This document shows positions 2,961 to 33,133 of a stretch of 36,008 nucleotides of DNA, in pieces. This DNA is from a virus, in the IMG/VR virus record IMGVR_UViG_3300028925_011923, positions 1 through 36,008 of that record; one strand, given 5' to 3'. The notes below the pieces were generated by a model. That model was not told the origin of the DNA, made no database searches, and was given only the letters and a program-made list of their open reading frames with translations. Position numbers and translations under genes: made by a program. Numbering within the stretch: position 1 is the stretch's first letter; each line of letters starts with the position of its first letter.

Positions 2961-4910
2961 ATGGCAATTAATCAAGTATCTGATGTTGTATTAGATAAAC
3001 GCATTGATAAAAAACAAGTAAAATATTTGAATAAAGATTATTCGGATTTCAAGAAAAGTTTAGTTGAATTCACTAAATTTTACTTTTCAGACACATATCA
3101 AGATTTTAGTGATGCTTCCCCCGGAAGTATTTTTCTTGATTTATCGTCTTATATTGGAGATGTTCTTTCTTATTATACAGATCATTCTTTTAAGGAGAGC
3201 CTATTAGCACACGCTGAAGAAAAGGAAAATATTGTTTCCTTGGCTCAGGGATTTGGATATAAGCCCCGATTAGTAACTCCTGCGTTTTGTACAGTATCAA
3301 TGTCTGCTTTGATTCCAGCCGACTCAGAAGGAAATCTAGAAACAAAATATCTTCCAAGATTTTTGCCAGGTTCTTCTTTCGCAGCTTCGACACAAAATGA
3401 TGTTGGAACTTTTGTTACAAAAGATATTTGTGATTTTGGAGATGCAACTAACAGAGATGTAAGACCGTTTTCTCTTCAAGCCACTGGACTGCCGGATTTT
3501 TATTTGGTATCAAAACCTATAAAAACCATGTCAGGAACAGAAAAAATTATTGAACGGGTTGTTACAACACCAACTAAGTTTTTAAAAATTGAAGTGCCGG
3601 GAGCAAATGTTGTAGATATTAAATCAGTAGTAGATGCTGAAGGAAATACTTGGCATCAAGTTGATAATTTATCTCAGGATTATATTTTTCAAGATATAGT
3701 AGCTAGTCCAAGTTCTACTGCTGTTGTCCCATTTTATAAACTTAAAACAATTAAAACAAATAGAAGGTTTGTTGTAAGATTAAATAGAAATTTAAAAACT
3801 GAATTGATTTTTGGGGGTGGAACCGGCGATTTGTCAGATGTTTATGAAAATCCAGATTATAAATCTGTTTATGATGAAAATTATCTACAAAATATGACAA
3901 ACGTTGCTTTAGATACTCTTAATTTTACAACTGGTAATTCGTTTGGTTTAGCCCCCGGTAATACAACATTAACCATTACCTACAGAATAGCTGGTGGAGT
4001 AACTTCAAATGTTGGATCGGGATTAATTAATAAAATCAGTAATCTTAGTACAGGAAATGAAACCAGAATTCTTTCCACAGCGGATCAAGCTGTTTATAGT
4101 ACAATGTTATCTAGTGTAACTGTTACTAATGATGAAGCTGCTAGTGGAGGGGGGAGTCCCCCAAGTGTTGAACAAATCAGACAATCTGCTATGGGATATT
4201 TAAATGCTCAAGGTCGCATAGTGACATCTACAGATTATGAAAAAAGAGTATTATCTATGCCCGCGAAATATGGAACTATACATAAAGCATTTGTAATAAA
4301 AGATGATGCCATTAATGCTGTAGTTAAATATACCAAAGAAGAACAACAGGGTATTGAGTCAATAGACCCAGAAGATGATATTAATTATGTTGATAATTCT
4401 CCAATTAATACAAATATTAATTTGTATGTGATGGGACTTGATTCTAATAATAGATTAACTACAGTAAACAATTCGGTTAAATTAAATATAAAACAATTTT
4501 TGAAAGGTTATCGAATATTAACTGAGAGAATTAATATTGTAGACGCCTTTAGGGTATCTATTGGTATTAATTATTCCATTGTTGTTTATCGTGGATCTAA
4601 CACCACCGATACGTTGGTTAAGTGTAGTGATACGATTAGAAAATATTTTAATATTGACGATTGGCAAATAAACCAACCTATAATAAAAGATGATTTGTTG
4701 GTAAAAATCGCAAACGTAGACGGTGTTCAGTCTGTAACAACTTTAACATTTATAAACAAATGGCAACAGAAAGATGGAAGTGACTATGCTCCATATTCAT
4801 ACAATATAGAAGCAAACACAAAGGATAGAGTTATTTATCCCTCCGCCGATCCTTGTATTTTTGAATTACGACATCCACAAATTGATATCATGGGGTCCGC
4901 AGTACAATGA
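2961..4910 (+). CDS. 6: Baseplate wedge protein gp6 (baseplate J-like)
   Basis: The 649-residue protein is close in length to T4 gp6 (660). The N-terminus (residues ~23-108) shows the gp6-type pattern: DYSDFKKSLVEFTKFYF, then SPGSIFLDLSSYIGDVLSYY and a helix ending GFGYKPR. The C-terminal half carries the baseplate-J-type segment DYEKRVLSMPAKYGTIHKAFV and later beta strands. gp6 dimers form the ring that joins baseplate wedges. GAGGA lies before the ATG, and the stop overlaps the next start as ATGA. A G6/C5 hairpin at 4149-4162 encodes a short Gly/Ser/Pro linker (SGGGSPPS) and looks incidental. Confidence 0.88.
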   Translation: MAINQVSDVVLDKRIDKKQVKYLNKDYSDFKKSLVEFTKFYFSDTYQDFSDASPGSIFLDLSSYIGDVLSYYTDHSFKESLLAHAEEKENIVSLAQGFGYKPRLVTPAFCTVSMSALIPADSEGNLETKYLPRFLPGSSFAASTQNDVGTFVTKDICDFGDATNRDVRPFSLQATGLPDFYLVSKPIKTMSGTEKIIERVVTTPTKFLKIEVPGANVVDIKSVVDAEGNTWHQVDNLSQDYIFQDIVASPSSTAVVPFYKLKTIKTNRRFVVRLNRNLKTELIFGGGTGDLSDVYENPDYKSVYDENYLQNMTNVALDTLNFTTGNSFGLAPGNTTLTITYRIAGGVTSNVGSGLINKISNLSTGNETRILSTADQAVYSTMLSSVTVTNDEAASGGGSPPSVEQIRQSAMGYLNAQGRIVTSTDYEKRVLSMPAKYGTIHKAFVIKDDAINAVVKYTKEEQQGIESIDPEDDINYVDNSPINTNINLYVMGLDSNNRLTTVNNSVKLNIKQFLKGYRILTERINIVDAFRVSIGINYSIVVYRGSNTTDTLVKCSDTIRKYFNIDDWQINQPIIKDDLLVKIANVDGVQSVTTLTFINKWQQKDGSDYAPYSYNIEANTKDRVIYPSADPCIFELRHPQIDIMGSAVQ

Positions 4911-8085: not shown

Positions 8086-10521
8086 ATGTCTGAGTACATC
8101 GATGGAGATTGGCCCCCCGCCAACAAAAGTCGCCGTAGAGCCAGCACCGGACGATCCGAGCTTAAGCTGTTTGATGTGACCGGCGAACCGCTTACTAATG
8201 AGACTTTGCAGTTTACAGAAGCGGGACAGACAAAAACAATTACAGCTCAGCTCCAAGTTTTAGATGAGAGTAATGAGGCAATTCTAGACCACCAGATCGA
8301 TTGGACCTCATCATTTCCAGAGTTGATTAGTGTTACGGCCGATACTACATACGGGAACGAGGCGAGCGCTGTTACAGTCACAGCTATTAAACCAACCGCA
8401 TCTCAGCAAGGTGTAATACTTCGAGCAACATGTGTGGTAACGCCCCCCGACGGCGAAGAAAAAACTATCGAAGCCCAGCGCACTGCGACATTTGTTAGAG
8501 TATTAGGGTGCATGGACCCAGATGCGCTGAATTATGATTCTCTTGCAACCGAAGATAACGGCACTTGTGAATTTATTCAACCATCTTCTACCACCCGCGT
8601 CCCAACCGGATTGGTCACTCAGCATGAGTTTGTAGTTAATTTAAAGTTTAAGTCCGACTATACTCAAATTTCCATACGAACTATTTTAGCTCAGACTATT
8701 ACAGATATGATGCAACCATATTTTGACGATTATTATGATCAATTAAGATATGGAAAAACTCTTCTTAATTTTGATAAAGGTAGTGATCTACCAATATCTA
8801 TGGCTAATGAACAACTTCAAATTATAAATTGGAAACGAGCAGAAGGAAATAAAGTAGCCCTTCGTCTTAAAAATGTACTTCCCACTGGATATCAAGTCGG
8901 CCGCCGGGCTATGGTAGTTAGAGAAATACAAAATCCAGTTTTTGATGTAATTAAATTTTTACCTGTTGAAGTTGGACCCATTGTACCAGAGTTAAGACCA
9001 TCTATACCTTCGGGCAGACTTGGAACCCAAAATAAAGTAACAGGAAGATTAGTAGATTTACTGCCAGGCATAGCTGGAGGATCTGGAGCATTGAGTGTAA
9101 GTTCAAGTTATTCTAATTTTGTTTCAAATCAAGTATTAGAAAATTATTATAATGTGAATCAAACGTCTATGGAGATAAATGTAGATTATTCAAATTTTGA
9201 AAATTTTGTGACATTTGGATCTGCTCAAAAGAGAATTGATGTCTTTAAGGCCAAGTTAGATAAAATACAAGATTTAGTAATAGTATCTCCGGTATTTGTT
9301 GAAGATTTAAATATTTCTGGTTCATCTGCTGAATCGGGATCATATAATACTGTTTTTGGAACGTTGGTAGTCGCTGCGAATGGAACGACTACTTTGTCAC
9401 AGTCGGGTTCTTCAGTGGTATATGACCTGTTGACCGCTACTACTGGAAGTCCGGGCTATGAAGCTTCAGCTTCTGTCTTTGTTGATACATCAAATCAAGT
9501 TTCAAAACAAATACAAGACTTAGTTAGAAATTTTGATGGATATGAAAGTGAGTTGTGGTTTGAATCTAATCTTCCATATTCAGCTTCCGATGAATCGAAT
9601 GTTAACATAAATAATCAATATAAAGTTGATTATACCTATCCGAAGATCTTAGGAATACCACTTGCAACAACCGATCCATTGGTATCTGGCTCGGCCGGGG
9701 GTGAGTGGTATCCACAGATGACAGCTATTGCAATTGATTATGATGCAAATAATAAAAATAGATTAACAGAAAACATTCCAGATTATTTGTGGGATGATGA
9801 AGATTCGGTTGATTTTATAACATTTACCGATTTAATTGGTCATCATTTTGATAATGTTAAAGTTTATATTAAAAATTTGGAAAACTTGTCTTCTAGATAT
9901 CCAAAAATAGATAAAGAAATATCAGCACCTATGGCGGCTAATGTAATAGAATCATTTGGTGTGAGTATTCCAAGTATTTCTGGTGTCGAGGGGCTGGTTA
10001 AGTATGTTACGGGGGATAATACGGGATCTGTTTCTTATAAAAAAATAGCTGATGAATATTATAATAGATATGTTCATGCTTTGCCGTTCATATTGAAATC
10101 AAAAGGAACAAAACAATCTATAAATTCATTACTTAATGTCTTTGGAATTAACCCGAATTTAATTACAGTTCGTGAATCTCTAAAGGGAGCATATACTACA
10201 ATTGAGCCCGTTAAGGTGACAACAACTGAACAAGATTTTGGTTTAGAATTTAATAGTGGTTCTTGGGTAAGGGTTCCATTTTCTGCTAGTTTAAGACAAC
10301 CAAAAACAATACAAGCAAGATTTTCATTGTTGGATGTTAGAAATCAAACAATATTAAATTTTGAGCCGTCATCTTCATATAGATTAAATGTTGAACGACA
10401 TCCATCTGCGGCTACTAACACATATTATACAAATTCTGGTCGATTGGATTTAGTTTCGGGATCATCTGCTACAGGAACGGCTAGTCTTGCTACTACTGAG
10501 TATTTTGATCTCTTTGATTAA
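8086..10521 (+). CDS. N-terminal part of a stop-split giant structural protein
   Basis: Codons 1-811 of a reading frame that continues to 13062 apart from one TAA at codon 812. Domain order: a short linker; an Ig-like (Big_2-type) domain at ~40-137 (ITAQLQVLDE, IDWTSSFPELISV, AVTVTAIKP); a Cys-framed Asp/Asn-rich segment, Cys142 to Cys161 (DPDALNYDSLATEDNGT), like the calcium-binding-type repeats of secreted adhesins; then a long region typical of large virion proteins, including a helical part with PFILKSKGTKQSINSLLNVFGI; and the first strands of a LamG/concanavalin-like domain from ~715 (FGLEFNSGSWVRVPFSASL). GGGAG precedes the ATG. The first ~500 bases are more GC-rich than the rest. As a separate product it would end in mid-domain. 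Confidence 0.8.
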   Translation: MSEYIDGDWPPANKSRRRASTGRSELKLFDVTGEPLTNETLQFTEAGQTKTITAQLQVLDESNEAILDHQIDWTSSFPELISVTADTTYGNEASAVTVTAIKPTASQQGVILRATCVVTPPDGEEKTIEAQRTATFVRVLGCMDPDALNYDSLATEDNGTCEFIQPSSTTRVPTGLVTQHEFVVNLKFKSDYTQISIRTILAQTITDMMQPYFDDYYDQLRYGKTLLNFDKGSDLPISMANEQLQIINWKRAEGNKVALRLKNVLPTGYQVGRRAMVVREIQNPVFDVIKFLPVEVGPIVPELRPSIPSGRLGTQNKVTGRLVDLLPGIAGGSGALSVSSSYSNFVSNQVLENYYNVNQTSMEINVDYSNFENFVTFGSAQKRIDVFKAKLDKIQDLVIVSPVFVEDLNISGSSAESGSYNTVFGTLVVAANGTTTLSQSGSSVVYDLLTATTGSPGYEASASVFVDTSNQVSKQIQDLVRNFDGYESELWFESNLPYSASDESNVNINNQYKVDYTYPKILGIPLATTDPLVSGSAGGEWYPQMTAIAIDYDANNKNRLTENIPDYLWDDEDSVDFITFTDLIGHHFDNVKVYIKNLENLSSRYPKIDKEISAPMAANVIESFGVSIPSISGVEGLVKYVTGDNTGSVSYKKIADEYYNRYVHALPFILKSKGTKQSINSLLNVFGINPNLITVRESLKGAYTTIEPVKVTTTEQDFGLEFNSGSWVRVPFSASLRQPKTIQARFSLLDVRNQTILNFEPSSSYRLNVERHPSAATNTYYTNSGRLDLVSGSSATGTASLATTEYFDLFD
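10519..10521 (+). other. Single in-frame TAA inside a LamG-like domain
   Basis: Translation through this TAA stays in the same frame and completes the LamG-like fold (NPVSIQLKYDAAGVNFDVRK directly after it, LYIGS and SLDEFRTWGE further on). A point mutation, sequence error or read-through codon fits; an insertion or deletion does not, because the frame is unchanged on both sides. Confidence 0.85.
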
Positions 10522-13062
10522 AATCCTGTTAGTATACAATTAAAGTATGATGCGGCCGGTGTTAACTTTGATGTTAGAAAAATAGAAAATGAAGAAACAA
10601 CATTTTCCGCGTCGTTACAGGAGTCAGCACCAAGTATGAGTGCTGATTGGGGATCTTTATCAAACCTTTATATTGGTTCCCCCGCAAAATCATCTAGTGT
10701 TGGATATCATCTCAGTGCTAGTTTAGATGAATTTAGAACGTGGGGAGAACAAATTAGTGATGCAAAATTTATTGAATTTGTAGAAAACCCAGGCATGTAT
10801 GCGGGAAATACCCATACTTCTTCATTACAAAATCTTCATGTTAGATTATCGTTTAATTTACCAGAAGATGTTCGAACACTTGGATATGTGACCAATACTA
10901 CACCATATGAGAACAAATCCCAAGCACCGTCTTTGGCCACCATTGCTAGCAGTGCGGACAATGTAGATGGAATTGCATTTAGTGTTGGATCATCCCCCAT
11001 GTACCAATCTAAGAGAAGTATTAGAACGGTCATTGAAAGTTCATATAAGGTAGGGGCAAGTACACGAACTACTGATATGATACGAATTGCACCAGCACCG
11101 CCGTTGTCGGGATCGTTGAGTAGAACATCAACGTTAACGTCTATTGTTAAGAAATTCCAAACAAGTAGCATGGGATCGACCGATATAGATATATCCATAT
11201 CACCAGTAGATGCTGTGGACAGAGATGTTATTCGTTCGTATGGTAATATTAATTTAGGTAATTTTATTGGTCGTCCGATTGATAGAAATGCTGACAACTA
11301 TCCCTTATTAGATACTATTGAACAAACGTTTGTAAAGAGTTTAGCACCAACAATAGATTATAATGCTTTTATTAGATTTTTTGATAAGTTTTTACATCTG
11401 TTTGGTGATACTGTAAAGGATTATTTCCCCGCCCGCGCTAACATTACAGATGGAATTGTTATTCGTTCTCCAATTTTAAATAGAAATAAACTAAGAGGAA
11501 GAGAAACCATTAAGATGGGGGGAGAGAATACGCGAAGAACAAATAATGCTATTACATCTACTACTGATAAGGATGTGATTAGATCATTCGATCCGACGCT
11601 TTCAATTAGTTCTTCTTTTACAAATGAACTCCAAGCTGATTATTCTAGCATTGATTCAAGTTTGTCATTGTCAGATTATACTGCCGGAACTGCTGTTCCT
11701 GCAAGGTTTGTTGTATCAGCCGATGGATATGATCAAAGTGGGTTTAATACTTTGAATGGTATTATTGTTCGACCTAATAGAGAGCGAGATGCTACCCAAC
11801 GAGGAGATGGAGCATTCCCCGCGTTGCCGTCTGTATTTGCTGGCAGCTCAACCGCAAGTCTGCTTTCTACCACACCTATTCAGGACGGTGCCCTGGCATA
11901 CGGTCCAGTAGATGACTTTACACCGGATAATATAGACGCATATACTTATTTTGATCAATCTCACGGTCTTACTTATATTGATGCTGTTAGAAATCTACCA
12001 GTTACACAATCGTGGATGCCAGCTGCTCCAAATGTTACCAGTTCTGGGTGGATTCATAATAATTCTTATAATTTAGGAGATGTTGTTTTACAACCTATAG
12101 ATACGAAATTATATCTTAGTGGATCGACATATAGTTCTGGAAGTGATTTGTCCGATAATGGAAAATATTATGTATGTCAACCACAAACGGATAGAACATC
12201 TACATTTCAAAGTTTACATCCACCACAACTTGATGGAAATAATTGGGTACCTTTGAAATATAACAAAGAATGGTATCAAAAATTGGCTAGATTTGCATAC
12301 GTTGGTGGTGATACAGATAATGTTTCGTTATTAACAGATACTACTTTTGTAGGGTACGATTCAATACCAAAAGAATATACAAGAAAACACTTTAGATTTT
12401 TTAGAGATACTTCAATTGGAGCTAGACGGAGAACATATGAGGGAACATTAAATACAATAACTACAACCGTTGATGTAGGACAACCATTTGAAGTGTTTGA
12501 TCTTAACGTTCAGACGATCACGGTCGGTAGCAATGACCGCGCTAGTGGTACTGGCACTGATGACGATATCAGGGGTCAGGACGATGGCCTGTTCGACGAG
12601 AGGCCCCTCACCTACCCCATTGGGCCAATGGACCCAACGACTGGACCCACAGCCGATCCTACGGAAGATCCCCGAATCAACGTTATTAGGGATATCATTG
12701 CTACAGTTCCCATCATTGACCCAGTACTGCCCCAAGATCCAGCGGCTATAATTAAGGTCGAAAAAATTGTTGAGATTGAGAAGGTAATTGAGAGTCATCG
12801 CCGCGATATCGGCCATGCCGCTCCTGACGCCGACGCGAGGCGCGATGAAATTGTTCGGTTGAAGAAGCAAGCTAAGGCTATTAGGGATGAATTAGTAGAT
12901 GATATAGTCCGTGAAGACGAAAAGATTGATCCTGTCGCGCGAGTGGAAAGGACTGAACGACCCGATCCATTTGAGATTAAACCAAGTGGTAGAGATCTTC
13001 CTAGAGAGAAAGAGGAAGATTTTGGTCCATCTGTTCCCGACGAGGATGATGGAATGTTTTAG
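10522..13062 (+). CDS. C-terminal part of the stop-split giant structural protein
   Basis: Continues the 8086 frame after the TAA. The coding signal begins directly at 10522, not at the first ATG. The first ATG is at 10636 (808 aa) with AGGAG at 10619-10623, a 12-nt spacing that could allow weak re-initiation. Residues up to ~110 codons after the TAA finish the LamG-like beta-sandwich (LYIGS, YHLSASLDEFRTWGEQISDA, ENPGMYAGN). The middle is a large beta-rich virion region. The end (from ~12500) changes to GC-richer DNA encoding a Pro/Asp-rich linker, a charged helical segment (VEKIVEIEKVIESHRRDI; DARRDEIVRLKKQAKAIRDE), probably coiled coil, and an acidic tail. Likely one polypeptide of ~1,650 residues with the upstream part in relatives. 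Confidence 0.75.
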   Translation, partial: NPVSIQLKYDAAGVNFDVRKIENEETTFSASLQESAPSMSADWGSLSNLYIGSPAKSSSVGYHLSASLDEFRTWGEQISDAKFIEFVENPGMYAGNTHTSSLQNLHVRLSFNLPEDVRTLGYVTNTTPYENKSQAPSLATIASSADNVDGIAFSVGSSPMYQSKRSIRTVIESSYKVGASTRTTDMIRIAPAPPLSGSLSRTSTLTSIVKKFQTSSMGSTDIDISISPVDAVDRDVIRSYGNINLGNFIGRPIDRNADNYPLLDTIEQTFVKSLAPTIDYNAFIRFFDKFLHLFGDTVKDYFPARANITDGIVIRSPILNRNKLRGRETIKMGGENTRRTNNAITSTTDKDVIRSFDPTLSISSSFTNELQADYSSIDSSLSLSDYTAGTAVPARFVVSADGYDQSGFNTLNGIIVRPNRERDATQRGDGAFPALPSVFAGSSTASLLSTTPIQDGALAYGPVDDFTPDNIDAYTYFDQSHGLTYIDAVRNLPVTQSWMPAAPNVTSSGWIHNNSYNLGDVVLQPIDTKLYLSGSTYSSGSDLSDNGKYYVCQPQTDRTSTFQSLHPPQLDGNNWVPLKYNKEWYQKLARFAYVGGDTDNVSLLTDTTFVGYDSIPKEYTRKHFRFFRDTSIGARRRTYEGTLNTITTTVDVGQPFEVFDLNVQTITVGSNDRASGTGTDDDIRGQDDGLFDERPLTYPIGPMDPTTGPTADPTEDPRINVIRDIIATVPIIDPVLPQDPAAIIKVEKIVEIEKVIESHRRDIGHAAPDADARRDEIVRLKKQAKAIRDELVDDIVREDEKIDPVARVERTERPDPFEIKPSGRDLPREKEEDFGPSVPDEDDGMF

Positions 13063-13112
13063 GGACCGCACGCAGTTTTAATTGAAAATCTTTTAAAATG
13101 AATTTAGATAAT

Positions 13113-13123
13113 ACTTATATTAG
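13113..13123 (+). promoter_or_regulatory. Candidate phage promoter motif (ACTTATATTAG)
   Basis: ACTTATATTAG is the fullest copy of the recurring intergenic motif. It sits in an 82-nt non-coding gap, 21 nt before ATG 13145, with AGGAG at 13131-13135 in the would-be leader. Promoter function is inferred from position and recurrence. Confidence 0.42.
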
Positions 13124-13144
13124 AACCAATAGGAGACAACAAAT

Positions 13145-13825
13145 ATGGCATATCTTGACAACACTGTAATTACAGTTGACGCTGTTCTCACCAAAAAGGG
13201 TAGAGAACGATTGGGACAGGGAAGAGACGCTTTTAATATTACAAAATTTGCAGTATCCGATGATGAGATCGATTATTCATTATATAATACCGCTCATCCA
13301 CTAGGATCATCATATTATTCAAATATTATTGAGTCGATGCCTGTTTTGGAAGCAATTCCAGACGAATCCCAAACAATGCGTTATAAATTAGCATCTATGA
13401 CTGTGGGACTCAAGAGACTCCCAATACTTGCCGGAGACGGAGTGCTCTCTTCAATAACATTAGATTCATTGACGGAAACACACAAAATTTCTCCGAAAAC
13501 CATAGTGCATGCAACGGCTGGAGGAACTCTCGATTCCTCTACCACTCTTGATAGTATTCAGGGATATACTATAATTCTATTTGATGAAGAGGCTGCAAGA
13601 GTAGAAATTGAAAGTGGACTACCTGCAGCTGCGAATTATAAAAACGCATCTAATGTTACAGTGAATCCTCTTATTAACTTTTCATCAACTATTGTTAAGG
13701 CTGGATTTAGTTTTACAATTGTACCAAAGGAAGTAACTGCGCAGAGAAATACAAAAATTACAATTTTTGGTAATGAATCTGGAGTGACAAAAACAATGTC
13801 ACTTACAATTAATCCTACAACTTAA
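13145..13825 (+). CDS. Conserved virion structural protein, 226 aa
   Basis: The N-terminus (MAYLDNTVITVDAVLTKKGR, then a FAVSDDEIDYSLYN-type segment) matches a pattern I associate with conserved structural proteins of marine T4-like phages that lie next to tail or neck genes; no enzymatic function is known for them. The C-terminal ~75 residues are beta-rich and look Ig-like (IVKAGFSFTIVPKEVTA, TKITIFGNESGVTKTMSL). AGGAG precedes the ATG, and a candidate promoter lies just upstream, so this may be the first gene of a transcription unit running through 16307. Family memory is not backed by a search. Confidence 0.75.
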   Translation: MAYLDNTVITVDAVLTKKGRERLGQGRDAFNITKFAVSDDEIDYSLYNTAHPLGSSYYSNIIESMPVLEAIPDESQTMRYKLASMTVGLKRLPILAGDGVLSSITLDSLTETHKISPKTIVHATAGGTLDSSTTLDSIQGYTIILFDEEAARVEIESGLPAAANYKNASNVTVNPLINFSSTIVKAGFSFTIVPKEVTAQRNTKITIFGNESGVTKTMSLTINPTT

Positions 13826-13850
13826 TGACTATTTTAAAATAAACTAACTT

Positions 13851-13854
13851 GAGG
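13851..13854 (+). promoter_or_regulatory. Ribosome binding site that fixes the start at 13861
   Basis: GAGG lies six bases before ATG 13861. The alternative TTG at 13849 would place this site inside the gene. Confidence 0.65.
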
Positions 13855-13860
13855 CAAAAA

Positions 13861-15042
13861 ATGGCACAAATTTACAAAAGGATTACCGCAGATGATAGAA
13901 GTTTCATTTCGCAAGAATCGACTACAGGATTGTGGAGTGGAGATACAGGATCGTTAAGTACCCTGCATACTTCGGCTACTCAAATAGCAAAAGCTAATTC
14001 AAAATATTTTGTTGATGTTTATGACGTAGACCCCGCAACCACTTCGTCCGCTGCTGTTCAATTTTCACTAGGATATGGCAATCGTTTTGGATCGGGTTCT
14101 CCAACGTTAACTCAACAAAACACATCAACGCGGGCTGCTCAGGCTGTTTATCTTCAGTTAAAGAATTTACTGTTAGATCCAACCGATACACAATTTACCT
14201 TTGCTAGTTCTGCAACATCTAATCAAATTTATGCTATTGTTATTTCAAGATCTCGTTATAAGGGATACGTTGATTCTGGTAATTGGCAACTTACTCTGAG
14301 TGGTTCAAATGGATCTTTCCACTTTATTGATGACAGTTCACAAACTCTTGGAACCAAAAGATCGTTTGCAAAGAATGGATTAGTCTTCAACGTTGCTTCT
14401 GGTTCTCTTAGCGGAACCCAAGGAAGTACTATTGTATCCACCACTTCTACTGGGTCCGCCGCGACTGCTAAGGGATTTGGATTATTCTATCCGCAAAAGG
14501 GTATTATTATTTTAAATGCAGATGTAATTGGTGCACATGTAGGATTTAAGGCTAGAACTGGATCTCTTGGTGATATTATAGGTAATTCAACAGGTGCAGG
14601 CGAAAACACTTCCTCAGCTGCTGTATTTATAAGTGCTTCAAGTTCAACTAATACGATTCCACGATCACCAATTACGGGGGCATTAGCAGGAACGGGTGGA
14701 GTTTACCAAGATCAATATAATTGGCACGGATTATATCGTAGTATGGTACTTGGATCACAGGACGTTGGGTTTACAGCTCGTTCTGCTGAAATCATTTCTT
14801 CAAATCATTATTTCCTACGGCTTAATAATAAGGAATTCAATTATTCAAACAATCCATCATTTGCTACGGGATCGAATGGTCAATTAGCTAATCAAGATTT
14901 TGAAAATGATCCTAAAGTTTTTGTAACAACCGTTGGGTTGTATAACGATTCAAATGAACTATTAGCGGTTGCTAAACTGAGTCGCCCGTTAGAGAAATCC
15001 TTCTCCAAGGAAGCTTTGCTTAGAGTCCGATTGGATTTCTAA
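13861..15042 (+). CDS. Virion structural protein, paralogue of the 15055 gene
   Basis: The protein (393 aa from ATG 13861) is Ser/Gly/Thr-rich and beta-rich. It contains GFGLFYPQKGIIILNADVIG in the middle and a C-terminal block with NNKEFNYSNNPSF followed by VTTVGLYNDSNELLAVAKLS. The same ending occurs in the next gene, so the two are paralogues. I recall this ending from structural proteins of marine T4-like phages, but their exact place in the virion is unknown to me. No transmembrane segment, Cys pair or catalytic motif is seen. The start is set by GAGG at 13851; the two genes are 12 nt apart and probably co-transcribed. Confidence 0.8.
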   Translation: MAQIYKRITADDRSFISQESTTGLWSGDTGSLSTLHTSATQIAKANSKYFVDVYDVDPATTSSAAVQFSLGYGNRFGSGSPTLTQQNTSTRAAQAVYLQLKNLLLDPTDTQFTFASSATSNQIYAIVISRSRYKGYVDSGNWQLTLSGSNGSFHFIDDSSQTLGTKRSFAKNGLVFNVASGSLSGTQGSTIVSTTSTGSAATAKGFGLFYPQKGIIILNADVIGAHVGFKARTGSLGDIIGNSTGAGENTSSAAVFISASSSTNTIPRSPITGALAGTGGVYQDQYNWHGLYRSMVLGSQDVGFTARSAEIISSNHYFLRLNNKEFNYSNNPSFATGSNGQLANQDFENDPKVFVTTVGLYNDSNELLAVAKLSRPLEKSFSKEALLRVRLDF

Positions 15043-15054
15043 TTGGAGATTTAA

Positions 15055-15942
15055 ATGTCCGTCTTTAAACAGATCGGTGGCGGAAATCATATAGCGGAAC
15101 CCTTTGAGGTCAACGCTGATCATAGTTTCGTATGGGTATCCGGTTCAGCTACAGCCGGTACAAATGGTCAAGCTTCTCCTACATCTTCGTTGAGCGGTTC
15201 GGGATTTAGTATTAATCTCGCTAACGAACCCCCAATAAATTATCCAACTGGCACCACTCAATACTTGGGGGGAATTTCAGACGGTGGATTTCATTCTTAT
15301 CCATTGTTTAATTCTATTAAAAAGTATTTTTATGTTGGAGAAGTGTCTGCTTCATCAGATAATGCTTATGGATTTTATCCATCCGGTTCAATGTTTGTGT
15401 GGAATGTTGGTTCAAATTTTACTGGAGAGGGAATTAAACCAGATACATTTAAAATTGAATTAGCTGGTAGCTCTTTGAATATTCAAGATGATGGCACTGG
15501 AAAACTTAAATTAAATAAAACGGGATCTGTTGTTGGTAATATTTCTTATAATCATGGAATTGCTGCCGTTCAACGAAATATTACTGCTAGTGCTGCTAGT
15601 TTTATATCCACAGATGGAATTTCTATTCGTAATAACGTAGTTGTTACATCCACTTTCCAATCAATTGTTAATATTTATGAACATACGGTAACTTGTACGA
15701 TTCAACCATCGGATTATAATGTAACGTTTAACCCGTCAGCACACACTACTGTGAATGCACTAGATGTGACGGGCTCGGGCAATTATAATAATTATATAGA
15801 TAGTGGTTCGGCTTTACCCTATGTAACAACATTGGGGTTATATAATGATTCTAATGAAATGTTAGCAGTAGCTAAATTATCAAAACCAATAACTAGAATG
15901 AAACACAGTGATCAAACTTTTGTTATTAAGTTTGACGAATAA
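15055..15942 (+). CDS. Virion structural protein, paralogue of the 13861 gene
   Basis: The 295-residue protein shares its C-terminus with the preceding one (VTTLGLYNDSNEMLAVAKLS here) and has comparable middle elements (TFKIELAGSSLNIQDD; ISYNHGIAAVQ) but lacks the long insertion of the 393-residue partner. The N-terminus (MSVFKQIGGGNHIAEPFEVN) is different, suggesting a different attachment partner. GGAG lies seven bases before the ATG. Two diverged copies side by side suggest that they form neighbouring or alternating positions of one structure (inference). Confidence 0.8.
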   Translation: MSVFKQIGGGNHIAEPFEVNADHSFVWVSGSATAGTNGQASPTSSLSGSGFSINLANEPPINYPTGTTQYLGGISDGGFHSYPLFNSIKKYFYVGEVSASSDNAYGFYPSGSMFVWNVGSNFTGEGIKPDTFKIELAGSSLNIQDDGTGKLKLNKTGSVVGNISYNHGIAAVQRNITASAASFISTDGISIRNNVVVTSTFQSIVNIYEHTVTCTIQPSDYNVTFNPSAHTTVNALDVTGSGNYNNYIDSGSALPYVTTLGLYNDSNEMLAVAKLSKPITRMKHSDQTFVIKFDE

Positions 15943-15953
15943 GGAGAAACAAA

Positions 15954-16307
15954 ATGTCAGATATGTTAACGAGATATAATGAATCAACATCTACAACGGT
16001 TCAAAGTGCGCGCAAACAAGCAGAGGGAGACAAAACAACAGCAGTTAATTTTTTTGATAGAGAAACTACATATCAAGATAATTTTACACCAAGAGATAAG
16101 GGTAACGCAACTGTAACTCTTTCTAATGCTGACGATGATACGGTTGGAAATTTTACAGAAGATGCATTATCACACTATAATCAAGAAATTGTAGACTTGG
16201 CTAATGGACATCACAAGTATAATAGATCAAATGTCGATTCACATTATGTAAATCAGAATTTAAATACCCCCGGCGCGATATATCAGCACGGCGCTTCTGA
16301 AAAATAA
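15954..16307 (+). CDS. Small 117-aa polar protein at the end of the virion block
   Basis: Not recognised. The protein is very hydrophilic, rich in Asn, Asp, Thr and His, with few large hydrophobics, and probably extended or disordered on its own (TYQDNFTPRDKGNATVTLSN; HHKYNRSNVDSHYVNQNLN). AAGGAG lies seven bases before the ATG. It is the last virion-like gene before the DNA-metabolism cassette. A small decoration or linker protein is possible but not shown. Confidence 0.68.
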   Translation: MSDMLTRYNESTSTTVQSARKQAEGDKTTAVNFFDRETTYQDNFTPRDKGNATVTLSNADDDTVGNFTEDALSHYNQEIVDLANGHHKYNRSNVDSHYVNQNLNTPGAIYQHGASEK

Positions 16308-16325
16308 TTAAAAAGGTTATAAAAT

Positions 16326-16676
16326 ATGTCAATTACACCTCGTAGCCGTAAGGCTAAGGGGAGACGGTTACAACAAGAAGTATGTAATTTGTTGTTGGAA
16401 CAGTTTTCCCATCTAGAACAAGACGATATCAAGCCCGCCATCATGGGAGAAAGTGGTGAAGATGTAAAACTTTCCCCAGCGGCTAGGAGATCCATTCCCT
16501 ATTCGTTTGAATGTAAATCTCAGGAAAGACTTAATGTTTGGCAAGCACTAAATCAAGCCGATGGTAATAGTAAAGGCCATGAACCTATTTTGGTTTTTAA
16601 ACGGAACCGAAGTAAGATTTATGCGGTTGTCGAATTCGACCATTTACTAAAGTTGTTGGAATTAAACAACAATTGA
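16326..16676 (+). CDS. Holliday-junction resolvase-like PD-(D/E)xK nuclease
   Basis: This short protein has the motif order of small RecB-type/Holliday-junction resolvase-like nucleases of phages: a basic start (RSRKAKGRRLQQE) with Glu18 in the first helix, Asp46 in MGESGEDVKLSPAARR, and the catalytic Glu62-x-Lys64 in YSFECKSQE, followed by a helix NVWQALNQADG and a strand ILVFKRNR. In T4 the resolvase role is filled by the unrelated gp49; here a resolvase-like enzyme would remove branches from replicating concatemers before packaging. AAAAGG precedes the ATG. The neighbouring primase and gp47/gp46 support a replication-recombination role. Substrate specificity cannot be read from sequence. 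Confidence 0.78.
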   Translation: MSITPRSRKAKGRRLQQEVCNLLLEQFSHLEQDDIKPAIMGESGEDVKLSPAARRSIPYSFECKSQERLNVWQALNQADGNSKGHEPILVFKRNRSKIYAVVEFDHLLKLLELNNN

Positions 16677-16687
16677 GCGGTAGGCAC

Positions 16688-16714
16688 TTGACAAACTGTG
16701 TTAATTCTTATAGA
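16688..16714 (+). promoter_or_regulatory. Candidate sigma70-type promoter before the primase
   Basis: TTGACA (16688-16693) is a perfect -35 hexamer, followed after 15 bases by TATAGA (16709-16714). Initiation would fall almost on ATG 16723, implying a leaderless or near-leaderless transcript. It could drive the primase and nuclease genes early. The short spacer is a weakness. Confidence 0.35.
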
Positions 16715-16722
16715 TTATCTAC

Positions 16723-17640
16723 ATGAATGATATATTACTGTCCATAGAAAGTGTTATTGGGTCATCTACGAAATCAACCAAAGACGAACGGTTGTTTATT
16801 TGCCCATTTTGTTATCACCACAAACCAAAATTATCCATAAACTTTGGAAGGCGAATAGGTTTTTGGAAGTGTTGGGTTTGTGATGAGAGCGGTAAGCGAT
16901 TTTCTACACTTTTATATCGTCTTGGATATTCTCGCAAAGAAATAAAAGATGTTCTTCAGGACCATGAAGATTTTTCTTATAAGAAAGAACATAAAGATGA
17001 GAATACTAGAAAACTTTCCCTACCTAGAGAATACAAACCCCTTTGGCAACCAAGTGGGGGTTTTGAATATCCTAATGCTATTAAATTTCTTAAAGATCGT
17101 GGTTTAACCAAATATGATATCTATCGTCACCAGATCGGATATTGTGAGGATGGGTTATACAAATCACGAATTATCATTCCTTCATATGATAATGAAATGA
17201 AGTTAAATTACTTCGTTTCCAGATGTTATTATAACTCCACGACTAAATACAAAAACCCCCCAGCATCTAGAAACAATATTATATTTGAAAATTTAATTAA
17301 TTGGAAGATGCCTGTGGTTTTAGTTGAGGGAATGTTTGATGCAATTAGTGTGAGAAGGAATTGTATTCCACTGTTGGGTAAGATTATGTCTGATAAATTG
17401 AAACAGACTTTAATCAAAACCAAGCCACCTGAAGTTTATGTAATGTTAGATAGAGATGCTCAAAAAGAAGCTATGAAAATTGAGCAGTATTTGAAATCTT
17501 TTTATATAAACGTTAAATTAGTTATACCAACAGATAAAGATCCTAGTGATTTGGGTTTTGAAAAATCATGGGAAGTTATTGGTGGCGCAATTAAAAGTAC
17601 CTTTGTGGATCTCGTTGGTACACGGTTCAACACTGCATAA
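16723..17640 (+). CDS. 61: DNA primase, DnaG-type (gp61-like)
   Basis: The N-terminus has a zinc-binding motif Cys27-x2-Cys30 ... Cys50-x2-Cys53 (FICPFCYHHKP; FWKCWVCDESG), as in primases that read template trinucleotides. A Toprim domain follows: Glu202 in VVLVEGMFDAISV, Asp243-x-Asp245 in VMLDRDA, and a DKDPSDLG segment that completes the metal site. The protein is 305 residues, a little shorter than T4 gp61 (342), with no helicase domain. It would make RNA primers for lagging-strand synthesis with the phage helicase. No Shine-Dalgarno sequence is visible before the ATG; a TTGACA promoter-like site lies just upstream. Confidence 0.88.
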   Translation: MNDILLSIESVIGSSTKSTKDERLFICPFCYHHKPKLSINFGRRIGFWKCWVCDESGKRFSTLLYRLGYSRKEIKDVLQDHEDFSYKKEHKDENTRKLSLPREYKPLWQPSGGFEYPNAIKFLKDRGLTKYDIYRHQIGYCEDGLYKSRIIIPSYDNEMKLNYFVSRCYYNSTTKYKNPPASRNNIIFENLINWKMPVVLVEGMFDAISVRRNCIPLLGKIMSDKLKQTLIKTKPPEVYVMLDRDAQKEAMKIEQYLKSFYINVKLVIPTDKDPSDLGFEKSWEVIGGAIKSTFVDLVGTRFNTA

Positions 17641-17654
17641 TATAGTATAATATA
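17637..17654 (+). promoter_or_regulatory. AT-rich repeat at the gp47-gp46 start
   Basis: ATAATATA occurs twice (17637-17644 and 17647-17654) across the end of the primase gene and the start of the nuclease gene. It includes a TATAAT hexamer (17646-17651) but no convincing -35 element, and no Shine-Dalgarno sequence is present. Confidence 0.3.
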
Positions 17655-20600
17655 TGAAAATAATTGATGTTAACTTTGATAAGTTAAATAGAGTAGTACA
17701 TTTAGCAGATACTCATATTCGTCTTTTCCAAAGACACGACGAGTATAAAAAAGCTTTCAAAAAACTTTATAAACAATTAAAGAAAATAGACCTAGATCAC
17801 GGTGTTATTGTTGTTGCTGGAGATATTTTACATGCTAAATTAGACATGTCTCCTGAAATGATCGAACTAACCTCAGATTTTTTATCAAATCTTGCAACAA
17901 TCGCTCCTACATTGGTCATTGATGGAAACCACGATTTAAATCTGTCTAATCCCCACAGGATGAATAGTCTGTATCCGATTATCAAAAACATTGATCATCC
18001 AGACTTACATTATCTATCTGAAAGTGACATCTATAGAGTAGCCGATACTGAATTTGCTGTATTTTCAATTATAGATGCTTATGCTAGTCCTGAAAATTGG
18101 CCAAGTGCAGATGACATGACGGCTAAAACAAAGATAGCTTTATATCACGGTCCTGTTTATGGAGCAAAAACAGATACACGTTATATGATTAGTTCTCGTC
18201 ATGTTGAGGTTAGTAAATTTGATGGATTTGATATCGCTATGCTTGGTGATATTCACACACATCAAATTATGCAAAGAAGAAATAAATCACAAAATCAACC
18301 GACTGTTGTTTATTCTTCTAGTTTAATTCAACAGAATCATGGTGAAAAAATAGATGGCCACGGGTATGTTGTTTGGGAACTACCATCTTGTAAAATGGAA
18401 TTTCATGAATTAAAGAGTGATACTGGATACGCGACAATAGAAATAAAAAGTGAAGATTTAAATAAATTAGTTATACCCGACAATCTTCCTAAGAATCTTC
18501 GATTAAGAATATATGCTTCAAATATTGAAAATACTAAACTTAAGAAGATCATTGCTGTTATAAGAAAGAAATATAACTTACTAGACATCGCGATAAATCC
18601 AAGCAAACCCGATCCACAGTCGCAGTCAACACAATTAGAAAGATTTGACACCGGCAATCTCAGTGATGTTAATATTCAAAATTCCTTAATACGAGACTGG
18701 ATACTTTCCAATTACCCAATAATATCAGATGAAACTATTGAGTCGGTTGTGAAGATTAATAAACGAGTGAATGGTTTGATTAAGTATTCGGACCAATCTA
18801 GAAATATTCAATGGAAACCTCTTCGATTTACATTTTCAAATCTATTTTCTTTTGGTGAAAATAATACTATAGATTTTACAAACATGCTTGGAACTAATGG
18901 TATTTTTGCTCCAAATGCCAGTGGTAAAAGTTCTTCTATGGAGGCCCTTAGTTTTAATTTGTTTGACAAAACTCCACGAGCATTTCGTGGTGATCACATT
19001 ATGAATATTAGGAAGAAAAAATTTGAATGTGAATTATCTTTTGATGTAAATGGTGAGGTTTATGTAATCAGACGCGTCGGAAAGAAAAATAAGAAGGGAG
19101 CTGTTAAAGTTGATGTAGATTTTTGGAAAGAAAATGAGGATGGCACTACAACTATTTTAAATGGTGAAGATAGGTTTGGTACCAATGCTAATATTCGTTC
19201 TATTGTTGGCACATATGAAGATTTTATTTTAACAACATTATCTGGTCAAACTGGAAATTCATTGTTTATTGATAAGTCTAATTCAGAGAGAAAAGTTCTT
19301 CTCAACCAATTTATGGGGTTGAATATCTTTGAACAGTTAGAAAGAGTTGCTAATGAAGAAAGTAAAGAGCTTCAAGGAATTTTAAAGAAGTTTTCTAGGG
19401 AAGATTTTACAGAACAGTTAGTATCGTTACAGACTGATATAGAAAAACATAATATTGATTTATTAGAAACCCAAACCCAGATTGACGATTTTGATAGAGA
19501 AATGGATGGGTTACAACTTGAGACGGAAATTCTGTCATCTCAGAAAATTAAAGTGCCTGTTACAAACATGGACAAGGGAACGTTATTAAAATCCAAAAAA
19601 TCTTTTATAAAGAAAAAGGAACAAGTTGAAAAAAACATTGATGTGTTGCTTTCTGAATCTAATTTAATTAAAGATAAAATTGATTCTTTGGTATTTGAGT
19701 TAGATAAGATTGATATTGATGAATTGAAAGAGGTTTATGAAAAATATCAAGTTTGTGAAAAAGGATTAACAAGGTTAGAACAAGAATATAATGTATTAAC
19801 AACTTCTATTGATAGTAGACAAAACATAATTAATCAGATTTCAAAATTTAAACACAATCCAGATTGTGAAGTTTGTATTGAAAATAATAAATCAAAGTTA
19901 GAACAAATAAGTGAAATCAATGAAGAAATAAGTATGCTTTCAAACAAAACTTCTGTGTTGGCTGGTGATATAGAAGAACATAAAATTAAACTTTTAGAGT
20001 TTAAAGAGAATTATGATTTATATTTATCAGCCACTTCTATGATGAAAGCTTTGGATAATCATAATATAAAATATAGTTCTTCTAGAAATTCAATTGACAA
20101 ATATACAAACCAAACAATAGTTATAGAATCTGATATAAAGAAACATATAGAAAACATAAATAAGATTGATGAATATAAAGAATCGCTAATAAAGAATAAA
20201 AACATTGATGATGTCATTTTTAAATTAAAAAATTCACAAGTTGTAATTAAAAAGAATATCACAAAACTAACTGCTAATAAGATGGAGATACATTCCGATC
20301 TTAAGGTTAAAGAAAATGGTCGTTCTTCTATTATGGAACAGTTAGAAGAGATGACTAAGATTGAGAGGGAATTTGAAGCATATCGTTATTATATGGAAGC
20401 TATCAATAAAGATGGATTGCCGTACAAATTGATTTCAAAAACCATACCAAATATTGAGGCTGAAATTAATGCTATCCTTTCACAAATTGTTACATTTTCT
20501 ATTGCTTTGGATGTTGATGGTAAGAATTTCGGCGGCAGAATTGTTTATGATCACGAAAGATCTTGGCCACTTGAAAACTCATCTGGTATGGAACGGTTCA

Positions 20601-20857
20601 TTAGTAGTCTTGCAATTCGTGTTGCTCTGTTAAAAGCTTCCAACTTGCCCAAGTCAAACTTCCTTATTATTGATGAAGGAATGGGCACCCTTGATACAGA
20701 ATTTTTACACGGAATGCAATTAATGTTTGATTTGCTAAAAACTCAATTCGATTTCGTTGTTGTTATCAGTCATTTGGATAATATTCGTGATATGGTAGAT
20801 AATATTTTAGAAATTAGAAGTACTAATGGTTATAGTCACATCAATATACTAAGTTAA
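17654..20857 (+). CDS. Fused Mre11/Rad50-type nuclease-ATPase (gp47-gp46, SbcD-SbcC)
   Basis: One 1,067-residue chain holds both subunits that are separate in T4 and bacteria. The N-terminal ~300 residues are the metallophosphoesterase nuclease: Asp19-x-His21, Asp57 in GDILH, Asn92-His93 in GNHD, His165, and His201-x-His203 in GDIHTHQ. The SMC-like ATPase begins at ~395 (FTFSNLFSFGENNTIDF). Its Walker A is at 416-426 (GIFAPNASGKS, Lys425) with Ala419 where Gly is usual. Long coiled-coil arms flank a zinc hook, Cys738-x2-Cys741. The signature SSGMERF, Walker B Asp1007-Glu1008 and D-loop GTLD follow. It resects DNA ends for recombination-dependent replication. There is no ribosome site; the start lies in an AT-rich ATAATATA repeat. 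Confidence 0.92.
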   Translation: MKIIDVNFDKLNRVVHLADTHIRLFQRHDEYKKAFKKLYKQLKKIDLDHGVIVVAGDILHAKLDMSPEMIELTSDFLSNLATIAPTLVIDGNHDLNLSNPHRMNSLYPIIKNIDHPDLHYLSESDIYRVADTEFAVFSIIDAYASPENWPSADDMTAKTKIALYHGPVYGAKTDTRYMISSRHVEVSKFDGFDIAMLGDIHTHQIMQRRNKSQNQPTVVYSSSLIQQNHGEKIDGHGYVVWELPSCKMEFHELKSDTGYATIEIKSEDLNKLVIPDNLPKNLRLRIYASNIENTKLKKIIAVIRKKYNLLDIAINPSKPDPQSQSTQLERFDTGNLSDVNIQNSLIRDWILSNYPIISDETIESVVKINKRVNGLIKYSDQSRNIQWKPLRFTFSNLFSFGENNTIDFTNMLGTNGIFAPNASGKSSSMEALSFNLFDKTPRAFRGDHIMNIRKKKFECELSFDVNGEVYVIRRVGKKNKKGAVKVDVDFWKENEDGTTTILNGEDRFGTNANIRSIVGTYEDFILTTLSGQTGNSLFIDKSNSERKVLLNQFMGLNIFEQLERVANEESKELQGILKKFSREDFTEQLVSLQTDIEKHNIDLLETQTQIDDFDREMDGLQLETEILSSQKIKVPVTNMDKGTLLKSKKSFIKKKEQVEKNIDVLLSESNLIKDKIDSLVFELDKIDIDELKEVYEKYQVCEKGLTRLEQEYNVLTTSIDSRQNIINQISKFKHNPDCEVCIENNKSKLEQISEINEEISMLSNKTSVLAGDIEEHKIKLLEFKENYDLYLSATSMMKALDNHNIKYSSSRNSIDKYTNQTIVIESDIKKHIENINKIDEYKESLIKNKNIDDVIFKLKNSQVVIKKNITKLTANKMEIHSDLKVKENGRSSIMEQLEEMTKIEREFEAYRYYMEAINKDGLPYKLISKTIPNIEAEINAILSQIVTFSIALDVDGKNFGGRIVYDHERSWPLENSSGMERFISSLAIRVALLKASNLPKSNFLIIDEGMGTLDTEFLHGMQLMFDLLKTQFDFVVVISHLDNIRDMVDNILEIRSTNGYSHINILS

Positions 20858-20863
20858 TTTGAT

Positions 20864-20873
20864 ACTTATTTAG
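20864..20873 (+). promoter_or_regulatory. Candidate phage promoter motif (ACTTATTTAG)
   Basis: ACTTATTTAG sits in the 41-nt gap between the nuclease and the fibre gene, 25 nt before ATG 20899. It resembles the motifs at 8062 and 13113. A switch from early-type to late-type genes occurs here, which would suit a late promoter (inference). Confidence 0.38.
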
Positions 20874-20898
20874 TAGAGAACTTTTACATTTATAAATT

Positions 20899-23800
20899 AT
20901 GTCAAGAACGTCTACCAAACCTCGCGGCCAGGGCCTTTTTAGGACACCTGTTTTAATTGAAGATACTGCTTCTTATTCTAAATATTTTGAAGTATCTCAA
21001 TTAGACAATAGAATTTTTCATGCTGGTAAAAATGGATTCTTAATTCGCGGTACCCAGTTTTTAAAACCAAATAGTGAAATTTCAATAGAAATAGTAGATC
21101 GGCTTAATAATCCCGTTTTTGCTAGTGCTGTTGCTGGTTATGAAGAGGGAGGATCACGATTAATATCTGTTGAAATTTATGAAGGAACAGCTGATGGCCC
21201 AGCAAATCTTATAATTTTAGGAACCGCACAAACCTATGCTGATGGTCGCCCAATACCCTCAGACACGCGTGGGTGGCGAAATAGGCCAAATGTTCGTTGG
21301 GTCGTTCCGATTCAAATCGAAACGTCAAATCCAAATATTTCACCTTTACGATTAGCAAACAATCCTACTGCTGTTATTACTGAAAAAGATTATCTTACTA
21401 CTCGTATTGATAAGACAACAGTTACAAGTAGTTTATATACAGCATCTTTAGATTATGATTATGCTGTCAATCGGTCAGATGGGTATGCAATTTATATGTT
21501 AAATAATGCTGGCCAGCCGGCTACATTTTTTGATACAGTAAATGTCGATGGAATTTTTACAGGTTCGCTTTTTAGAAAGACAATAGAATCTGCATCTGCG
21601 GGGACAATAACTACCGTTTCGACGGGTGACAGTCAAGGCTATGTTACCGCAAGTGTTAGCATGTCTCTTGATAAGGTTTTAAATGAGACAACTGCTATTA
21701 CACAAACTCCAATTAAATTTGGAGATGATACCGATTATATTAACCCACTTTTAATGTCTGGATCGTTCCAACGAGTTATACAAATTGCTGATCTGGACGC
21801 GGGAGCAACTAAACATACAATTGAAGAATATACATCTAGTGTAGTGTTTGAGTATGTTTCTGAATCTTTGGTTAATACGACAAGTACATCTTCTGTTTTG
21901 AATTTCAGAATACCATTTGTACAAACTATTACGGGAGAAATTGCAAAGGTTAAGATTAGTTCAAAAGAATCAAATGCGGCTATTACTTCTTTTGTACCAT
22001 TTACAGAATTCGTCCCAGGCGAACGAAACTTAATTACATCTTCTTCTCTGTCAGGGACTCAGATAGGAAGTTTCCACCAAGCTGGGGTATTTACAGAAAG
22101 TCATATTTTAGATAGTAATTGGTTTTCTGCTTTGTTCAATAAAGCAGATGGAGATTTTAATCAAACTGAATATGAATCGGCTGGCACATCTCTTACATAT
22201 GGAAAGACCAGTATAACATCTTCTGAAAAGATTCTTGAAGGTGCTGAGGTCGATCATACCGCAAGTGTTGTTCCTTATTTCTTTGGAACAAAAACCGGAA
22301 TACAACTTTATAAGAATGTTGAATATACTTTAAAATACACAGCGGTTTATACACCAACATATGTTACTAGATCTGCTGGTATTGCTCAATCCGGTCCAGG
22401 CGTCAATGCTGTGGGACATGAGTACACAACTTCAGATATAGGTTCATTAAAAACATTCATAACTAGAACTGCAAACCACATTGATTCTGGAAGTTTTCTT
22501 GTCAATGATGCTGAACCAGTTCAAATCGGATCTGTTTCAAAACATGGTATGTGGGTTGATAATATTACAACCAGAGGACGCGACAAATCTTTATATGAAA
22601 GAGAAGTAAATTTTAAAATACCAGGCGATGGGGTAGCTTATTTAAGATTCAAAGCTGAAACTGGCTTTTGGAATTTCGGAAATATTGAAATTACACCTGC
22701 TGTTGAACGGGGATTTAATCCAGACGAAATTATTTTTGATGCAGAAAATAATACCCTACCAGCTACTACAAATGACTTTAAGATTCAATTTTTAAATTTT
22801 GAAGATATACCCATTGATTATCACCTCATTGGATCGTCCGTATTTGTTTCGGCTAGCAATTTACCATCAGATGGTGTAGATGGTGCTGCTGGAACATCTG
22901 CAGCATCACTTCAAGTCTCATCTAATTCACAAGTTTTTGCATTGGACGATTCAAGTGATACATCTTTATCACCAACAACTGTTACTATTACAGCTAAACA
23001 GCAGAATCAAGCAAGTAATTTAGTGGATGGGGATTTGTCGGTAAACAACAGTGCTGCAAAATCATCGTTTAATTATAGTGCTGGAAGTGGAACAGGAACG
23101 GGAACTGCTACTTGGACAGTAACACCTGACGGTCCCGATTCGGGCGATTTTCCAATAGTTGCTACTGTTACAAATGATGGTTTAAGTGATATTACAACAT
23201 TACATCGGATAGTTGGTGGAGCAGACGGTAGTGCTGCAAAAACTGTAGTTGTAACTGCAACTTCTCCAGTTTTTGTAAAATCACGGGCCGGGACAATAAC
23301 TCCTTCTTCAGTAACTATAACAGGTAATACTCAAAATACTACTACCAATGGAGTTTGGTCAAATTCTGGCGGTGCTATGACCGTAGTAAGCTCTGCTCAT
23401 GCAAATCCTTCAGTTACAGTTAGTAACTCACAATTCGTTGATGGAATGACTGTAACTTACACTCTTGCTGGTGCTGATGGTAGTGTTGCAGATACAGTAA
23501 CACTAAAACTATTAGATGCGGAAGAAGGTGGAGTTCAAGCAATTCTTTCAAATTCAGCCCATGTATTACAAGCCAATTCTATTGGAGCAGTTTCAAGTTA
23601 TGCGGGTAGTGGAACAACGATAAGAGTTTATGAAGGTGCAACTGAATTAACATTTGTAACCGGAACACCTGCGGCGGGTCAGTGGGCAGTAGCGGTAGGA
23701 AATACTGCAAATATAACAGAAGGTGGTGTAACAGATAGTGGAACGTATTGTACAATTGGTAATCACAGCAGTGCTGCAAACGGCACAGATGAATATGTAA

Positions 23801-31549: not shown

Positions 31550-33133
31550 ATGACTGAAAATCTAAAAGATATTATTAAAAAAGAATATCTAAAATGTGCA
31601 TTGGATTGTGAATATTTCTTAAGAAAGTATTCTTATATTCAAGTACCCAATAAGGGCCGCCAACTTTTTGAATTATACGATTACCAAGCAGAGGCTCTTC
31701 ACGCATTCCAAGACCATAGATATAATATTCTTTTAAAGGGTAGACAAATCGGTATTTCTACTCTAGTAGCTGGATATGCTTTATGGAGAATGTTATTTAA
31801 ACGAGATGAACAAATTTTGGTCATTGCTATTAAACAGGATGTTGCAAAAAATCTTGTAACTAAAGTTAAATTTATGCACCAATTACTTCCTGTTTGGTTA
31901 CGGGGAGATCTTGTAGAGGATAATAAACTTACTCTTAGATTTGGTAATGGTTCAACAATTAAAGCAACTGCAACTCGCGAGTCGGCTGGTCGTTCCGAAG
32001 CTCTTTCTTTGTTAATATTTGATGAAGCTGCTTTTATCGACGGCGCGGATGAAATATGGACATCTTCTCAGGCAACTCTATCTACCACAGGGGGTTCGGC
32101 TGTATTAGTTTCAACTGCTAATGGTGTTGGTAATTTCTTTCATAAAACGTGGACAGACTCAGAAGCAGGAGAAAATGATTTTCATAGAACCTTGTATGAT
32201 TGGAGAGTACATCCCGAAAGAGATGAAGAGTGGGCTGAAGAACAACTTCGTCAAATGGGAGAACTTAGATTTGCTCAAGAACATGGAGCTTCGTTTATTT
32301 TCTCAGGAAATACTGTCATATCTGCAGAAATATTAGAATTTTATAAACAAACTTTTGTTCAAGAACCAGTGGAAGTCCGCGGATTTGATAATAATTTATG
32401 GGTATGGCAACAACCGGACTATGCAAAATCATACATTGTTTCAGCCGATGTAGCGCGAGGGGATGGGGAAGATTATTCTACATTTCATGTAATTGATGTA
32501 GATGCTTCTGAACAGGTTGCAGAATATAAGGGTAAAATATCTCCAAAAGATTTTGGAAATCTTTTAGTCGCAGCTGCAACTGAATATAATGACGCAATAA
32601 TTATTCCCGATAATTCAAATATTGGTTGGTCAACCATTCAACAAATTATTGATCGTGATTATCGTAATCTCTTTTATATGAGCAACGATTTACAGTACAT
32701 AGATACTATGCATCAAATGACGAATAAGCATTATTCGGAAGAAAAGAAAATGGTTCCCGGCTTTACAATTTCTCAAAAAACAAGACCTCTGTTGATAGCT
32801 AAATTAGAATCATATATGAGAGAACAGTCAATTATAATTCGTTCATCTAGAACGATGGCAGAATTAGATACATTTGTGTGGAAAAATGGAAAAGCAGAAG
32901 CTTTAGGTGGATATAATGATGATCTAACTTTGGCGTTAGCAATTGGGCTGTGGGTAAGAGATACCGCTTTACGTTTAAGATTAGAAGGAATAGAATTAAA
33001 TAAACAAATGTTAAATAATATTTCTGGCAAACATACTAAGGCTTTATTTACTTCTGATTCACAAAAGGAAAAGGATGCCTGGGAAATTGATGTCGGTCAA
33101 GAAAAGGAAGATATAAGATGGTTACTGGGTTAA
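31550..33133 (+). CDS. 17: Terminase large subunit (gp17)
   Basis: The ATPase half has the Q-motif-like region (YDYQAEALHAF), a Walker A at 64-71 (GRQIGIST) with Ile69 where T4 has Lys, Walker B Asp158-Glu159 (LLIFDEAAF) and a coupling-type STANG motif. The nuclease half has Asp300 (SADVARGDGEDYS), Asp354 (IIPDNSN) where T4 has Glu, and Asp457-Asp458 (GGYNDDLTLAL), together forming the RNase-H-like metal site. At 527 residues it is shorter than T4 gp17 (610). It cuts concatemers and pumps DNA through the portal. A short, weak ribosome site precedes the ATG; the membrane protein ends five bases upstream. No small terminase gene is recognised nearby. Confidence 0.93.
   Translation: MTENLKDIIKKEYLKCALDCEYFLRKYSYIQVPNKGRQLFELYDYQAEALHAFQDHRYNILLKGRQIGISTLVAGYALWRMLFKRDEQILVIAIKQDVAKNLVTKVKFMHQLLPVWLRGDLVEDNKLTLRFGNGSTIKATATRESAGRSEALSLLIFDEAAFIDGADEIWTSSQATLSTTGGSAVLVSTANGVGNFFHKTWTDSEAGENDFHRTLYDWRVHPERDEEWAEEQLRQMGELRFAQEHGASFIFSGNTVISAEILEFYKQTFVQEPVEVRGFDNNLWVWQQPDYAKSYIVSADVARGDGEDYSTFHVIDVDASEQVAEYKGKISPKDFGNLLVAAATEYNDAIIIPDNSNIGWSTIQQIIDRDYRNLFYMSNDLQYIDTMHQMTNKHYSEEKKMVPGFTISQKTRPLLIAKLESYMREQSIIIRSSRTMAELDTFVWKNGKAEALGGYNDDLTLALAIGLWVRDTALRLRLEGIELNKQMLNNISGKHTKALFTSDSQKEKDAWEIDVGQEKEDIRWLLG

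Follow-up and report, generated by a model that had tools for sequence, protein, structure and literature searches.

A probable private nonsense difference in a large tail-region gene of a contractile-tailed phage

Introduction

Nonsense mutations in structural genes of phage T4 lead to nonfunctional fragments, and growth of these mutants needs a suppressor host (PMC9576892). In-frame stops are also found in prokaryotic genes, where possible read-through events with a conserved frame beyond the stop have been described, and many of these stops are considered short-lived and probably deleterious (PMC7918605). Here we analyze a window of 36,008 bases, the IMG/VR virus record IMGVR_UViG_3300028925_011923, which is a fragment of a contractile-tailed phage; all coordinates are positions within this window. 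Downstream of its baseplate genes lies a large gene, which is interrupted by a single TAA (Table 1). Homologs of this gene are present in the Microcystis phage Mel-JY01 (WWT39511.1, 1,336 aa) and in the Flavobacterium phage vB_FspM_immuto (gp109, 1,265 aa), each as a single gene that is annotated as hypothetical. As in the window, both are located 3' of a baseplate wedge gene, whereas they are uninterrupted and share only 22-25% identity with the window gene over most of the aligned length. Similar to the T4 conditional lethals, one substitution introduces an internal stop into a large structural gene and would give a shortened fragment. However, the T4 mutants are isolates that were grown on suppressor hosts, whereas here there is one metagenomic sequence with a possible base error and no known suppressor. 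The stop also resembles the possible read-through events in prokaryotes in having a conserved frame beyond it, but in contrast to those it is known from one sequence only. From the comparison with its relatives it is very likely that the TAA is a private single-base difference, arisen by consensus error or by very recent mutation, and that the stop is without function. Events of this type, be it a nonsense difference or an error in the consensus, are already familiar.

Table 1. Positions of the interrupted gene, its parts and other phage genes in the window.
Feature	Position	Strand	Basis
Large tail/baseplate-region structural gene	8086..13062	+	One frame, 1,659 codons including both stops; single intact ORF in 89/90 relatives
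N-terminal part, higher G+C, variable among relatives	8086..8620	+	Comparison of relatives
LamG/ConA-like beta-sandwich spanning the stop	10237..10800 (approximate, model limits)	+	AlphaFold2, Foldseek, Pfam
In-frame TAA, codon 812	10519..10521	+	GAA (Glu) in otherwise identical sister contig; no stop in 86 aligned relatives
AGGAG and ATG, proposed re-initiation site	10619..10638	+	AGGAG only in near-identical sister and L004
Charged C-terminal extension, higher G+C, lineage-specific, variable junction	12550..13062	+	Comparison of relatives
Baseplate wedge genes	2577-2951; 2961-4910
T4-like terminase and portal	31550-33133; 33929-35728

Results

The gene and its distribution

The upstream ORF (8086-10521) encodes 811 amino acids, and the same frame then runs on to a TAG at 13060-13062. 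As noted in the preliminary description, the frame is open throughout except for the TAA at codon 812, which is its sole internal stop. Since each of the other five frames contains 61 to 206 stops over the same distance, the openness of this frame is far from chance, and both parts of it, before and after the TAA, are coding. Both ends of the gene are richer in G+C than the core and differ among relatives, and the C-terminal extension is absent from L004 (IMGVR 3300009418_000170, from another metagenome).

The gene is one uninterrupted ORF in 89 of 90 loci, a set that includes a few near-duplicates. This supports the earlier assumption of one continuous ancestral frame, and the arrangement as two separate genes, which had been named as the observation that would speak against it, is not what the relatives carry. 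The sole exception is L004, in which a frameshift (L004:9275-9320), located about 1.2 kb 5' of the homologous site, splits the gene into two overlapping ORFs. This frameshift is independent of the TAA and could equally be real or an assembly error.

This tail-region protein is very widespread, as viral contigs contain at least 564 stretches that match it. In bacterial genomes, a scan found a single distant relative, in a Winogradskyella MAG. Neither the protein nor any of 30 homologs scanned (from L026-L105) has a match in PHROGs, no convincing relative with a solved structure was found when the whole protein was used in a sequence search, and no passage on the homologous protein was found in the immuto literature. 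This widespread and largely unannotated LamG-like tail-region protein is of more interest than the stop itself.

A predicted LamG-like domain spans the stop

The preliminary description had proposed that the sequences on both sides of the stop form one LamG-like domain, and the predicted fold and the profile matches are in agreement with that. The AlphaFold2 model of the domain from the intact sister contig (described below) has a mean pLDDT of 79.5 and predicts a beta-sandwich to which the sequences before and after the stop both contribute strands; the stop itself corresponds to residue 125 of the model and is located in an inter-strand loop. Foldseek matches the model to LamG, pentraxin, CBM40 and phage tailspike structures with E of about 1e-5, at TM-scores of about 0.4-0.6 for LamG, pentraxin and CBM40. 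The Pfam profile Laminin_G_3 (PF13385) is found in 18 of 37 homologs of the region, although the sister's own copy is unmatched. On the basis of the predicted fold and the homolog profiles, the region is assigned as a putative LamG/ConA-like lectin domain. The Glu and Arg of its DEFR segment are invariant in the 37 homologs and are located after the stop. With a pLDDT of 60, a model of 961 residues is too uncertain for an assignment of the protein beyond this domain. The PDB matches of this model stem from its LamG part; those to other structures, coronavirus spike among them, were regarded as spurious.

One base distinguishes the window from a sister contig

The sister contig IMGVR 3300028925_011444 (L001/L012/L022) represents the same virus and is 99.6% identical over window positions 8380-23654. 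Over 8527-12549 the two sequences are identical except for the first base of codon 812, which is T in the window and G in the sister, so that TAA stands against GAA (Glu) at position 10519. The exact match of L022 to the window extends over 1,992 bases on the 5' side of this position and over 2,030 bases on the 3' side. Thus, the stop is due to one substitution, as had been proposed, and the whole alignment of the assembly with the sister shows no frameshift and almost no differences outside a few clustered tracts.

Codon 812 is a sense codon in the more distant relatives as well, and a comparison of this kind had been suggested as a check. L002 and L004, which are 82-84% identical to the window, both have GAA, and among the 86 relatives that could be aligned over the site 82 have a sense codon, mostly Glu in the close relatives, four are gapped and none has a stop. 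No other copy of the TAA allele was found in IMG/VR, in a search that may omit records nearly the same as the window. The parts of the gene before and after codon 812 are under similar purifying selection, with dN/dS of 0.41 before and 0.48 after it against L002, and 0.37 and 0.50, respectively, against L004.

Discussion

Consensus error or recent mutation

According to the reading that we strongly prefer, the gene product is one long tail/baseplate-region protein, and, as the comparison with relatives shows, a single G-to-T difference has turned a glutamate codon into TAA in one assembled sequence. A random single-base change in the gene has a probability of about 4.6% to create a stop, and a lone stop is therefore unremarkable as an error. 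Of the two possible origins, a wrong consensus base is slightly favored, either as a plain error or as a defective minority molecule that entered the assembly, since selection would make a fixed nonsense mutation in a structural gene rarer still. The chance that the sampled virus itself carries a nonsense mutation, acquired very recently, is somewhat less than even; in its favor, the window otherwise looks well assembled and agrees with the sister almost perfectly outside a few clustered tracts. A real mutation would terminate translation within the LamG-like domain, and the resulting fragment of 811 residues would lack half of this domain and the whole C-terminal half of the protein, which is under purifying selection just as the N-terminal half is. 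By analogy with the T4 amber mutants, a virus with this mutation would probably be defective. Of the four options considered in the preliminary description, sequence error and recent nonsense mutation fit these data, whereas programmed read-through and host suppression are contradicted or unsupported: the otherwise identical sister has a sense codon, a stop at this site is absent from all relatives, and a search of the window and of the sister contigs for suppressor tRNAs found none. More generally, the case is a caution that an isolated in-frame stop, known from a single metagenomic contig, can mimic recoding; here a sister contig resolves it.

Alternative explanations

It is improbable, though slightly less so than the alternatives that follow, that the TAA is a real nonsense allele, kept in circulation among the viruses because loss of the C-terminal half is tolerated or even useful, for instance as a step in the loss or swap of a tail module, and that the shortened tail protein has a selectable effect. 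The variability of both gene ends among relatives and the independent frameshift in L004 point in this direction, but the lost part goes beyond the variable tail and contains core, well-conserved segments, and the state of L004 may be an assembly artifact. If true, the circulating allele might alter adsorption or drop the module, perhaps complemented by intact co-infecting sister viruses.

Programmed read-through of the TAA, by which short and long virion forms would be produced, is still less probable. The frame stays open past the stop and is under purifying selection, but this needs no read-through, because a copy that is identical over 4 kb but for one base carries a sense codon. Moreover, as this sister shares the surrounding sequence, nothing near the stop has evolved for read-through. 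A stop at this codon is not conserved in a single one of the 86 aligned relatives, and in the predicted structure it lies inside a folded domain and not between domains. Folding of the RNA that follows the stop is ordinary (z = -1.23), and together with the shared surroundings this speaks against a stimulatory structure or leaky context. Neither a terminator nor a promoter was found after the stop.

An arrangement of two genes, the second one re-initiating at ATG 10636, has an even smaller probability. It could draw on the AGGAG at 10619-10623, which is located 12 nt upstream of this ATG just as the preliminary description had measured, and the ATG is 39 codons past the start of the TAA codon, so that the 38 codons given there would be lost. 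However, the AGGAG is missing in 9 of 11 relatives, and where present it belongs to ordinary Gln-Glu codons, the Met of ATG 10636 is an ordinary internal residue in relatives, and nearly all relatives have one ORF instead of two cistrons. Furthermore, both products of a split gene would carry half a beta-sandwich.

Suppression by host or phage, or a recoding of TAA as a sense codon, is the least probable explanation, as nothing was found in its support and TAA terminates 20 of the 28 genes delimited in the window, which agrees with the earlier view that general recoding is unlikely. No tRNA genes are present in the window. Seven are encoded at L024:12308-15579, on a 38 kb contig that belongs to the same virus and overlaps with the window at its left end; they have ordinary anticodons, including Glu-TTC, and none has a TTA anticodon. 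Neither the window nor the sister contigs, which together represent an incomplete virus genome, contain a suppressor (TTA-anticodon) tRNA, and the combination of such a tRNA with in-frame stops in many genes, as in reassigned-stop phages, was not observed.

Further observations in the window

Where the window differs from sister contigs of the same species, the changes are concentrated in a few short tracts (3-186, 1711-1767, 8423-8526, and 12550-12635), while the intervening kilobases are identical, and near 12575 there is an indel of 27 bases. This pattern suggests local recombination or strain mixing, as judged from the alignment. Tract 1711-1767 contains 18 changed bases, all of which are nonsynonymous. 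A diversity-generating retroelement was considered as the origin of this variable tract and rejected, since the changes are not restricted to adenines; a template repeat matching the tract was not found in the window.

Two further large ORFs are located downstream of the interrupted gene. The ORF at 17654-20857 (1,067 aa) matches an N-terminal SbcD-like nuclease profile followed by an SbcC-like ATPase profile, and thus is apparently an SbcD-SbcC fusion. The ORF at 20899-25860 (1,653 aa) ends with a C-terminal Peptidase_S74 chaperone domain and contains an imperfect direct repeat, the copies of which are 1,020 bases apart; it likely encodes a tail fiber or tailspike.
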